Positions 18,415-38,466 of a stretch of DNA of 38,466 nt are shown piece after piece. Source of the stretch: Nitrospinota bacterium (GTDB taxonomy: Bacteria; Nitrospinota_A; UBA7883; JACRGQ01). The translations under genes were made by a program, and so were the position numbers. Below the pieces are notes generated by a model, which was given only the letters and a program-made list of their open reading frames with translations, was not told the DNA's origin and made no database searches. Within the stretch, counting starts at the first letter, position 1; each line of letters starts with the position of its first letter. The stretch covers positions 1 through 38,466 of the forward strand of contig JACQBU010000033.1 in NCBI GenBank assembly GCA_016194375.1, in the 5' to 3' direction.

Positions 18415-19325
18415 TTGGCAGTTCCTGATTTTCAATCGGTTTTCTTGCCGCTTTTAAAATAATCGAAAAACGCGGCGCCGTTTCACTTCGTGATTCGATA
18501 GACTTGACCGCTGATTATTTCAATTTAACTCCGGAAGAGAGGAACACACTTCTCCCGAGCGGAAAGCAAACCATTATTTCAAACAGGGTTGGTTGGGCGC
18601 GTACCTATTTGAAGAAGGCCGGACTTATTCATTCTCCGCAACGTGGCGTGGTCTCTTTAACAGATAGGGGGAAAAAGGTCTTGTCAGAGAATCACCCAGA
18701 AATCAGGGTTAGCTTTCTCCGTCAGTTCCCGGAGTTCAAATCCTTCCATGCTTATCAAAATGAAAAGGGGGTGCAGGTTGGGAGGGAGCCGACCGTTAAG
18801 CCAGAAGATTCCACACCGGAAGAAATTCTTGAGCAGACCTATTCTGATCTAAGGGGTGGCTTGTTGGATGACATATTGGAAAAAGTAAAGTCCTGTTCCC
18901 CGAAATTCTTTGAAAGGCTTGTGGTTGATGTAGTTGTTAAAATGGGGTGCGGGGGTTCCAGAAGGGAAGCTGGCCAGGCAATTGGCCAAAGCGGGGACGA
19001 GGGCATTGACGGCATCATCAACGAGGATCGTCTTGGATTGGATGTGATATATCTTCAGGCCAAGAGGTGGCAGGAAAATGTGGGGCGTCCGGAAATCCAG
19101 AAATTTGCGGGCGCTCTTCAAGGCAAAAGGGCAAAAAAAGGGATTTTTATAACGACCTCTGATTTCACAAACGAGGCGAAGGAATTCGCAAAAAACATTG
19201 AATCCAAAATCATCCTTATTTCCGGCGGACAACTGGCGGAAATTATGTGGGAGTTCAATATCGGAGTTTCGTCGGCGGAAAATTACGAAATAAAGAAGCT
19301 GGACTCGGATTTTTTCGAGGAATAG
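18415..19325 (+). CDS. mrr: Mrr-type restriction endonuclease with an internal -1 frameshift
   Basis: Mrr-like enzymes cleave modified DNA. The gene starts at TTG 18415 behind GGAGG and reads AVPDFQSVFLPLLK, then meets TAA at 18460. The -1 frame continues at once with IIEKRGAVSLRDSIDLTADYFN, and the whole joined product is 303 residues, matching E. coli Mrr in length and order. The N-terminal winged helix includes LPSGKQ and NRVGWARTYLKKAGL. The catalytic domain has FERLVVDVVVKMG, GDEGIDGII, LQAKRWQENVGRPEIQKFAGAL and GIFITTSDFT; the D and QAK residues of the PD-(D/E)xK site are present. The shift point is TTTAAAA. Base composition is more AT-rich than in the neighbours, suggesting transfer. 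Confidence 0.88.
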
Positions 19326-19333
19326 AATTTGTT

Positions 19334-19362
19334 GGTAGGGGGCAGGCCCCCGCGCCTGCCCA
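19334..19362. repeat. REP-like palindrome upstream of the transposase gene
   Basis: GGGCAGG and CCTGCCC form an inverted repeat with a C/G-rich loop, inside a G/C-rich patch within otherwise AT-rich DNA, about 25 bases before the transposase ATG. REP-associated tyrosine transposases usually act on such palindromes. Confidence 0.5.
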
Positions 19363-19387
19363 TTTGGGAATCCGCGTACATATTTAT

Positions 19388-19993
19388 ATGGTAGATAAAT
19401 CGATTGGCAGACGTTCAATCCGGCTCAAGGCCTATGATTATTCCCTGGCTGGGGCGTATTTTGTCACAATATGCACAATGGACAGAAAATGCATTTTGGG
19501 AAAAATTCAAAACAAGGAGGTGTCGTTAAATTCCTTAGGACTGATGGTTCAACAGGTTTGGGGAGAATTACCGACCAAATATCCCGGAGTGGCCGTTGAC
19601 CAGTTTGTCGTCATGCCCAACCACATTCATGGCATTGTCATCCTTAACAATGCAGCCTCTTATGGGCAACCGCAGGGGGTTGCCCCTACATATTCGCTTC
19701 CCATGGTGGTTCATCGGTTTAAATCGTTTACGACCTACTTGTACCGGAAAAATTTGCGAAATAGTTCTTCGGAGAATCCGGCGGGCGGATTATGGCAACG
19801 TAATTATTTTGAGCACATAATTCGAAACGAAGAATCATTGGGCAAGATTCGCAATTATATTTTCACCAATCCCGCTACATGGGAATCTGATTTGGAAAAC
19901 AAAAAGAACCAGCGCGAATTGCATGCGATTGACTATTACAACAATATTTCCGGAACCACCAAACCGTCAATACTTCCAAAGAAAAATGATTAG
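19388..19993 (+). CDS. REP-associated tyrosine transposase (RAYT, IS200-like Y1)
   Basis: A 201-residue single-strand DNA transposase-like protein. Start ATG 19388 (MVDKSIGRRSIRLKAYDY) gives the usual N-terminus RRS.RL..YDYS..G.YFVTICT. The HUH motif is VVMPNHIHGIVIL; the likely nucleophile is the Tyr of RNYIFTNPATW; LWQRNYFEHIIRNEESLGKI is characteristic. Residues around ASYGQPQGVAPTYS are encoded by a palindrome, GGGCAACC...GGTTGCCC, so a REP-like sequence appears to sit inside the gene as a tolerated in-frame insert. It overlaps the end of the converging aldolase gene by about three bases. Confidence 0.88.
   Translation: MVDKSIGRRSIRLKAYDYSLAGAYFVTICTMDRKCILGKIQNKEVSLNSLGLMVQQVWGELPTKYPGVAVDQFVVMPNHIHGIVILNNAASYGQPQGVAPTYSLPMVVHRFKSFTTYLYRKNLRNSSSENPAGGLWQRNYFEHIIRNEESLGKIRNYIFTNPATWESDLENKKNQRELHAIDYYNNISGTTKPSILPKKND
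19661..19686. repeat. REP-like palindrome inside the transposase coding sequence
   Basis: GGGCAACC and GGTTGCCC are perfect complements separated by a six-base spacer, flanked by TAT and CTACATA. The segment encodes a loop absent from many RAYT proteins. Confidence 0.6.
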
Positions 19994-36239: not shown

Positions 36240-36313
36240 GACGTCGAGGCCGCCTCGAGGCTCGTTAGAAGGTCCGGCTCGTCGTCCACAAGCAGTATCA
36301 GGAAATCCTTCAT
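36240..36313 (-). pseudogene. 5' stub of the response regulator, out of frame
   Basis: ATG 36313 overlaps the kinase stop (ATGA) and reads MKDFLILLVDDEPDLLTSLEAA, a normal receiver start with the acidic pair DDE. The frame then ends at a TGA near 36238, while LDVMMPGMDG continues in another frame. About 30 residues between SLEAA and LDVMMPG are missing compared with ordinary receivers. Confidence 0.8.
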
Positions 36314-38247
36314 AGCTTGTCCCCCAGCGCCGTCTTCACTCGCGCCAGAAATTCGCCTGCGGTGCATGGCCTGGCCATGACGTCGTACGCCCCCATCTTT
36401 AGGAGTAGCGTTTTTTCCTTCTCCGTCAAATCCTTTCCCATAAATATAACCGGTATGCGGGCGGTTTGTCGGGACTGTTTTATCATGGAAAAAATCTTCA
36501 TCGCGTCGTCGGCTCCGGCGTGATAGTCCATCACTATGAGCAGGGGTTGCGAGCTCAATATCGTCTCAACCACCAAGCCGTCGGAGTCCGCCTTAAGCAC
36601 GTTGAACTCTCGTCCAAGTATGCCCTCGTCCATCGCCGTGTTTTCCGCGTCGGTGGCGAGGAAAACCTTTTTCCTGCGGGCCCCGTTTACGGGGATGGTC
36701 AGGACGAACTGGCTCCCGCCCGATGGGGCGGCCTGGCAGGTTAGAGTCCCGTTGTGAAGCTCCGCCATCTTCCTGCTTATGGAGAGGCCCAACCCCGTGC
36801 CCTTGTACAGCCTTTGAACCCCGGAATCGGCTTGGAAATAACTCTCGAACACCCTCTCCCTGAGGGTCTCAGGCACGCCTATGCCGGCGTCGGAGACCGT
36901 GAACGTAACCGTTCCCCCCCCGCGTTCGGCCGCCGTCTTCCCGACGATTATTGTTATCCAGCCGCCCTTGGGCGTGAACTTGACCGCGTTGGATAGAAGG
37001 TTGTCCAAAATCTGCGTCAGCATCGCCTCGTCCGCGTATACGTTCGGGATTCCGGCGGGGACTTCCATGCTCAATTTTATTCCCTTTTCCTTGCACGCTG
37101 ATTGGAATGTTTCGAAGGTCAGCCGCGCGACGTAGGCCGGCTCGACGAGAATTGGGCGCAATGTCATCATCTTCGCCTCGAGTTTCGCCAGGTCTAGTAT
37201 GCCGTTTACCAGCGCGGTCTGCCGTTCCACGTTGCGCAATATCATCTCAAGGAACGACCTCTGCTGTTCGGTCACGACCCCCAAAGTGCCTCGCAGGAAG
37301 TTCTCCGCCGCACCCCGAATAGCCGTAAGCGGCGTGCGAAGTTCGTGCGAGACCATCGATTGAAATTCCGCCTTTACCTTCTCCATCTCCGTCTCGCGAG
37401 TGACGTCGCGCATCACAAGCATGCGGCCCATCCTCTCCCCCTCGTACTCCACTTCGCTCGACGTCATCCTATAGTTGCGGGAAAAGAGTAGCAACGGCGT
37501 CTCCACCCCGGGGGTGATCTCCATCGGGTCGACGCCCGTCATGGCCCTTAGGTCCTCCAGTTCAAACTTCGCCCCCCCGGCTATCCTGAACGCGCGCCTG
37601 GCCGCCGGGTTTATCATCTCAATATTCCCGCGGCTGTTGACGAACACGACGGCTTCGGACATGGAATGGAGAAGCGATTCAATCGTCCGCCTCTGGGACT
37701 CCTGCTCCTTCCTGATTTTAATAAGGCGCACCGACTGGCGCGCCAACAGTTCGTTGACGGCCTTAAGCTCCTGGTTTTTTTCGACGAGATCATGGTGGAG
37801 CGCCGACTGCTTGCATATAGTGCGAAAGATTAGGATTCCGTTGTCCACCGCCTCAGGAAGCACGCGCACATCCTTGCCATGCTTGAAAAGGTAACCTATG
37901 GCCCCTTTTTCCGACAGCCTTAGGGCGTCGGGCCTTTCCCCCTCGTCCCCGAAGAGGATGACCGGAAACTCGTACTTCCGTTTCCTGACCAAGTCCAGGA
38001 AATCGGAGGCCGATTCGTCCTTTGCCGGGCGCATGGAAACTATCGCGACGTCATAATCGTAATACTTCAACTGCAAAAGCGCGTCTTGGATTGATCCCGC
38101 CCTGTCGCAGTGAAACTCGATGTTCCTGACCTGAAAATATTCGGCGACCTGTCGCACGACCGACTCCGCCGTCTCGTCGTCGGCTTCCACCACCAAGGCC
38201 CTCGCGCCCTCGGAGGTTGGATATTGGAATTTTTTCGTTCCATCCAT
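36310..38247 (-). CDS. Hybrid sensor histidine kinase (REC-like, PAS, HisKA, HATPase, REC)
   Basis: 645 residues, no transmembrane segment, so cytoplasmic. Residues about 15-140 are receiver-like but degenerate: the strand that should hold the phosphate-accepting Asp reads VAIVSMRP. A coiled linker follows (about 145-190), then a PAS-like domain (SMSEAVVFVNSRGNIEMINPAARRAF), HisKA with His301 (MVSHELRTPLTAIRG), HATPase (QILDNLLSNAVKFTP, DAGIGVP, GTGLGLSI), and a C-terminal receiver with Asp574 (IVMDYHAG). Its stop overlaps the start of the GGDEF regulator, its evident partner. The MITE-like element lies just upstream of the start. Confidence 0.94.
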   Translation of the reverse strand: MDGTKKFQYPTSEGARALVVEADDETAESVVRQVAEYFQVRNIEFHCDRAGSIQDALLQLKYYDYDVAIVSMRPAKDESASDFLDLVRKRKYEFPVILFGDEGERPDALRLSEKGAIGYLFKHGKDVRVLPEAVDNGILIFRTICKQSALHHDLVEKNQELKAVNELLARQSVRLIKIRKEQESQRRTIESLLHSMSEAVVFVNSRGNIEMINPAARRAFRIAGGAKFELEDLRAMTGVDPMEITPGVETPLLLFSRNYRMTSSEVEYEGERMGRMLVMRDVTRETEMEKVKAEFQSMVSHELRTPLTAIRGAAENFLRGTLGVVTEQQRSFLEMILRNVERQTALVNGILDLAKLEAKMMTLRPILVEPAYVARLTFETFQSACKEKGIKLSMEVPAGIPNVYADEAMLTQILDNLLSNAVKFTPKGGWITIIVGKTAAERGGGTVTFTVSDAGIGVPETLRERVFESYFQADSGVQRLYKGTGLGLSISRKMAELHNGTLTCQAAPSGGSQFVLTIPVNGARRKKVFLATDAENTAMDEGILGREFNVLKADSDGLVVETILSSQPLLIVMDYHAGADDAMKIFSMIKQSRQTARIPVIFMGKDLTEKEKTLLLKMGAYDVMARPCTAGEFLARVKTALGDKL

Positions 38248-38318
38248 TGTTTGGAGATTATACCCTTAACTCCGCAATCCCCGCGAATAACGCGCGAAAA
38301 AACCGACGGTCGGCTCGG

Positions 38319-38457
38319 TAGTGCCTCAGTTTGAAATTTATGGGGATCGCCACGACCTCTTTCAGAGGTCTCGCGATGACAGGTAATTGTCATTGCGAGC
38401 TAAGCGAAGCAATCCAACATCCTTTTTTTTTTCGATTATTTTCAAACTGAGGCACTA
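38319..38457. mobile_element. MITE-like element with 18-bp perfect terminal inverted repeats
   Basis: TAGTGCCTCAGTTTGAAA at 38319-38336 and its exact reverse complement at 38440-38457 bound a 139-base element with no gene. If TA is the target duplication, this fits a Tc1/mariner-IS630 type MITE. The inside is a second nested palindrome: GGATCGCCACG...CTCGCGATGAC against GTCATTGCGAG...GAAGCAATCC, and within that GACCTCT-TTC-AGAGGTC. The inner GTCATTGCGAG...GCGAAGCAATCC is like a repeat widespread in deltaproteobacterial and related genomes. It lies just upstream of the kinase gene. Confidence 0.8.
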
Positions 38458-38466
38458 ACCTCGGCT

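Follow-up and report, generated by a model that had tools for sequence, protein, structure and literature searches.

A MITE with IS1-type ends that probably carries a head-to-head pair of CGTC-type REPs in a Nitrospinota bacterium

At the end of the 38,466-nt stretch of DNA analysed here (the window) lies an element that, judged from its sequence and those of its relatives, is very probably a non-autonomous transposon of the IS1 kind (a MITE) with a head-to-head pair of CGTC-type REPs as its cargo. IS1-type MITEs are a known kind; what is new is one carrying a CGTC-type REP pair. REPs of this type also adjoin small GIY-YIG nuclease genes, both in this genome and across many others, and we lean somewhat towards the view that the nuclease is the dedicated enzyme of CGTC-type REPs, with gene-less REP pairs spreading both through the nuclease and as cargo of unrelated MITEs. 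The lean is a slight one because the literature searched is partial: a link between GIY-YIG genes and REPs was not found in the openly licensed literature searched, and earlier reports elsewhere are possible.

The element and its copies in the genome

The perfect 18-bp inverted ends described in the first-pass annotation are present in the window copy (38319-38336 and 38440-38457), as is the nested palindrome GTCATTGCGAG...GCGAAGCAATCC (38389-38415). The ends are in fact 20 bp long, not 18 bp, being extended by an outer GG/CC, with AC at the right outer pair where the consensus has CC (Table 1). Alignment of 34 copies gives a consensus of 141 bp bounded by GGTAGTGYCTCAGTTTGAAA and its reverse complement, and the window copy has two additional bases within a T run. 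The TA that had been taken for a possible target duplication is part of these ends and is conserved in most of the 34 copies; the real duplication is 8 bp. In the window copy, GTCGGCTC on the left matches CTCGGCTC on the right at 7 of 8 positions, the final base of the latter lying outside the window and being taken from the overlapping contig C106. The element folds strongly, with a z-score of about -9 on both strands.

Table 1. Coordinates of the window copy of the MITE, its parts and its neighbour (window positions), and of the second MITE family (locus positions)
Feature	Position	Strand	Remarks
MITE, window copy	38317-38459		143 bp
Left target-site duplication GTCGGCTC	38309..38316	.	8 bases outside the left-end GG; right copy matches at 7/8; the duplication is 8 bp family-wide
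Left terminal inverted repeat GGTAGTGCCTCAGTTTGAAA	38317..38336	+	Same ends bound IS1-like transposases
REP unit 1, 38 bp	38344..38381	-	Tag towards centre; hairpin finder
REP unit 2, 28 bp, TGTCATTGCGAGCTAAGCGAAGCAATCC	38388..38415	+	Tag towards centre; hairpin finder
Right terminal inverted repeat TTTCAAACTGAGGCACTAAC	38440..38459	-	Consensus end: CC
Right target-site duplication CTCGGCT(C)	38460..38466	.	Contig end cuts off the last base, which is from contig C106
Hybrid histidine kinase gene (response regulator, HisKA, HATPase)	36310..38247	-	Neighbouring context, outside the MITE
Second MITE family, copies	L068:7601-7737, L101:526-663, L087:457-594, L082:623-759

Contig C106 (G000:C106:15310-15405, where G000 is the window genome) overlaps window positions 38360-38466 within the MITE with a few base differences, which indicates that the assembly breaks at the MITE repeat and that the window copy may be a mixed consensus.

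A search of the 1.91-Mb genome for the 18-bp end, as the first-pass annotation had proposed, returned 68 matches at up to 3 mismatches compared with 3 for the reversed pattern, a count that is far above chance, and searching with the element places the 141-bp family at about 40 separate sites. The flanks carry an exact 8-bp duplication in 14 of 33 copies and match at 6 or more of 8 positions in 23 of 33, compared with 0.7% when flanks were paired across copies; a perfect duplication of 7 or 9 bp was seen in only 1/33. Almost all copies (31/34) lie outside predicted open frames. Short, gene-less, bounded by inverted ends, present in many copies and flanked by target duplications, the element has the properties of a MITE, as had been suggested at the outset. 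No comparable clean empty site was found among the relatives, where kinase homologues are too diverged; the homologue from the same genus matches over its C-terminal half only.

Two subtypes of the MITE exist, with ends 81% identical, REP units 80% and 92% identical and linkers 37% and 25% identical; within the subtypes, conservation of the REP units equals or exceeds that of the ends. At one locus, L071 (G000:C29, about 1477), the same ends enclose next to nothing, in a very small element of about 55 bp. At three others (L080:4490-4680, L104:1577-1766 and L120 near 1607) a repeat CATTCGTCTTTGCC..CGGCCAGGG is inserted in REP unit 2 between GCAA and CAATC.

About 70 bp separate the window copy from the start of the hybrid histidine kinase gene, which lies downstream of it and is read away from it. 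A sigma-70-like promoter was not found in the window MITE, nor an Rfam RNA family in the window. The strong folds of the MITE could affect a transcript, a putative effect, and the influence on kinase expression suggested in the first-pass annotation is likewise putative.

Transposases that share the ends

The 20-bp end, allowing at most one mismatch, occurs in 11 of 60 relatives. In G008 and G001, among other relatives, it adjoins an IS1-like transposase (PF03400; 331 aa in G008). A transposase with the same ends, which the first-pass annotation had proposed to seek as an IS630-type enzyme, thus exists in relatives, but of the IS1-like kind. Scanning of named genome contigs with the end yielded at least 116 stretches from many phyla; among the loci listed, a transposase is present in 29/80, and where ends are paired at distances of 1.1-3.9 kb, exact 8-bp duplications are common. 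Five of the six transposase proteins tested pass the PF03400 cut-off, and the match to the NCBIfam IS1 model NF033558 stays below its own, which makes the mobiliser IS1-like and somewhat divergent. The likeness to the IS1 family lies in the DDE_Tnp_IS1 transposase (PF03400) bounded by these ends, in ends that start with GG and in an 8-bp target duplication, within the 8-9 bp of that family. The differences are the NCBIfam IS1 score below cut-off, the passenger genes of the larger relatives and, in the window MITE, a REP pair in place of a gene.

The larger relatives with these IS1-type ends (L276, L283, L284, L253, L292, L266 and L158) are 2.3-3.9 kb long, mostly with 8-bp duplications, and their passenger genes, which accompany the transposase, encode P63C proteins, AAA ATPases, SocA/Panacea antitoxin-like proteins, and an HTH protein with an IrrE-like peptidase.

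The window genome (a 94%-complete assembly of 135 contigs) gave no match to an IS1-like transposase, so that the present mobility of the MITE is at most putative; an autonomous IS1 partner, not found here, is not required for MITE status. We suggest that an IS1-like DDE transposase once acted on the ends, and that it has since been lost from the genome or is missing from the assembly; such activity would have copied the REP pair around the genome. An IS1595 transposase as the source of the MITE was rejected, PF12762 being absent from the window genome.

REP pairs and GIY-YIG genes

The core of the MITE is a head-to-head REP pair of 38 + 28 bp, each unit with a TGTC tag towards the element centre and a stem starting with AT. 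A strict hairpin finder run over the whole window returned, apart from these two units, a single weak site whose loop is 26 bases long. Compared with the text description in Di Nocera 2013 (PMC3733652), the units share with the CGTC REP superfamily the C/TGTC tag, the AT-starting stem, the short CC/CT tail and the arrangement in head-to-head dimers. According to the same paper, members of the superfamily, which includes Rickettsia RPE-4/RPE-6 and Neisseria dRS3, stand mostly in head-to-head dimers and 'apparently lack a dedicated transposase'. The REPs described here differ in lying inside MITEs as cargo and beside a GIY-YIG gene.

The idea that the MITE holds a repeat of another kind is borne out by the REP pair between the ends of all 34 aligned copies, and the idea that it spreads this repeat by the presence of the pair in copies with unrelated flanks and 8-bp duplications. 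The genome has 84 occurrences of the motif GTCATTGCGAG, whose contexts include, besides the IS1-type MITE, a second family of MITEs, two units with a GIY-YIG gene, and 21-bp tandem arrays. In this second family, with ends AACCTCTGAAAAAG and a length of about 138 bp, the tags of the same REP units point outward, and the duplications are apparently 9 bp (9/9 in one copy, 8/9 in another). In relatives, elements with the same IS1-type ends carry other CGTC-type REP pairs with tags inward, e.g. ATTCT/ATCCT in G011. Outside this class, an AT-type CGTC REP was found in IS1-type MITEs of only 1/17 named contigs, and the notion that REPs are present in every IS1-type MITE was dropped. Since the subtypes share ends and REPs and have unrelated linkers, and since a second MITE family holds the same units in another layout, the REP appears to travel as cargo. 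The unrelated linkers further point to capture between IS1-type ends at least twice, and repeated capture is the simplest reading; in principle, extreme divergence rather than separate assembly of the subtypes could also have left linkers without resemblance.

The window genome holds two GIY-YIG genes (on C130 and C38) of about 100 aa, each set between a 38-bp and a 28-bp REP whose order and orientation are those of the MITE core. The C130 unit is intact; in the C38 copy the gene is split between two frames. The two copies share 88% identity over 386-387 bp, and their homology begins and ends at the REPs, as it does for paralogues in G047 and, roughly, in G026. Given these boundaries, REP, gene and REP behave as a single moving unit. 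Window REP unit 2 is identical to the right REPs of both units at 26/28 positions, and REP unit 1 to the left C38 REP at 30/38. The MITE core is most likely a gene-less form of this unit, and this form would have been caught between IS1-type ends on at least two occasions; with REP unit 1 only about 79% identical to the GIY-YIG-flanking REP, direct descent from the observed copies is uncertain. Beside the intact GIY-YIG unit, the locus L100 (G000:C130:5551-6188) contains 21-bp tandem arrays of TGTCATTGCGAGCGTGGCGCG-like units.

Across genomes, 61 of the 79 distinct close GIY-YIG homologues with usable flanks have a CGTC-type hairpin within 250 bp of the gene, 43 of them on both sides, and for 18/79 no REP was found nearby. 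These counts are conservative, as the finder misses variants such as GTCGTTCCC (G076). Hairpin density near the close homologues is 4.04/kb compared with 0.065/kb (62-fold) in a background of 400 kb from 20 genomes that also hold such genes, and the median distance of the REP from the matched GIY-YIG domain is 23 bp. Among distant GIY-YIG genes from the same profile, 1/6 and 0/20, together 1/26, are REP-flanked (close vs distant, pooled Fisher p = 1.3e-11). Where REPs lie on both sides, the tags point outward in 30/43 cases; the window genome, with its inward tags, is among the exceptions.

REP identity also follows the protein. On a tree of 61 REP-flanked proteins from about 40 bacterial families, built from few columns and with weakly resolved forks, the stem class (ATTCC, ATTGC, ATTCT or ATTTC) changes 10 times compared with 29.6 after shuffling (0/200 as low), and the nearest neighbour at no more than 85% identity has the same class in 84% of cases compared with 31% (0/10,000), figures that include close relatives, which are not independent, and that pool similar stem variants within the four classes. 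Paralogues within one genome adjoin different classes (G043, G005, G047). The PF01541 domain is found in 19/19 proteins of the first GIY-YIG alignment, and R29, E66 and N85 are invariant in these 19, which fits an active nuclease. We infer that this nuclease acts on the REP, a putative enzyme function.

Competing readings and known systems

The proposal in the first-pass annotation of an IS630/Tc1-mariner MITE with a TA target duplication draws on the TA at the outer edge of the 18-bp repeats. That TA lies inside the conserved 20-bp ends, the duplication is 8 bp, no DDE_3 transposase (PF13358, IS630) is present in the window genome, and the transposase found with these ends is IS1-like; we rejected the IS630 assignment, which retains practically no probability. 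The same annotation had named the absence of other copies and of a matching transposase anywhere as grounds for giving up the element, and both copies and transposase exist. It is also conceivable that the REP pair is a functional part of the MITE, an internal hairpin for regulation or transposition unrelated to free REPs. The conservation of the REP units relative to the ends within subtypes and the strong folding speak for it, but the same units recur elsewhere, in the second MITE family as well as in tandem arrays and at the flanks of GIY-YIG genes, and the scarcity of such REPs in IS1-type MITEs of unrelated taxa (1/17) indicates that the REP is not needed for transposition, making a functional part improbable.

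Enzymes other than the nuclease have to be weighed as well. GTAG-type REPs have a known enzyme, the RAYT, and the genome encodes three such IS200-like tyrosine transposases (Y1_Tnp), which could likewise mobilise the REP pair (TGTCATTGCGAG hairpins). One of them lies within the window, and another, on C14, is separated from a MITE copy by about 70 bp. We consider mobilisation of the pair by RAYTs very unlikely: the scanned surroundings of the window RAYT and of the C31 RAYT contain no CGTC-type hairpin, on which ground the RAYT was rejected as REP partner, the hairpin match near the C14 RAYT is the MITE itself, and palindromes near the window RAYT start with GGTAG. PMC3733652 likewise reports no RAYT flanked by CGTC REPs. 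A different doubt is that the GIY-YIG link is a by-product, nuclease genes and REPs gathering in loose intergenic regions with no functional tie. Both do lie between genes, the role of the nuclease is putative, and nearly a quarter of the close homologues (18/79) have no REP found nearby; against this stand the 62-fold density over background, the near absence of REPs at distant GIY-YIG genes, the agreement of REP class with the protein tree, the different classes at same-genome paralogues and the end of paralogue homology at the REPs. We regard a by-product as rather unlikely, though the least so of these alternatives.

By analogy, a gene-less inverted REP pair together with a gene flanked by the same REPs recalls the REPIN/RAYT system (PMC3116915), with the difference that the flanking gene here is a GIY-YIG nuclease and not a tyrosine transposase. 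The nearest solved relatives of the REP-flanked nuclease are UPF0213 GIY-YIG proteins (PDB 1zg2, 1ywl), although the sequence matches to them are weak. A nuclease family that flanks CGTC REPs and is matched to them class by class turns the question of the missing enzyme into a direct in vitro test, and the MITE would be a second route by which a small palindrome multiplies, as cargo of a transposase-driven element.

The tyrosine transposase encoded in the window, at 19247-19993, is RAYT-like: it matches PF01797, and its match to the NCBIfam model REP_Tyr_transpos stays below the cut-off. Palindromes of the GGTAG type lie close to it, at 19334 and at about 19655-19690, so that parts of both REP worlds are found in the same window.
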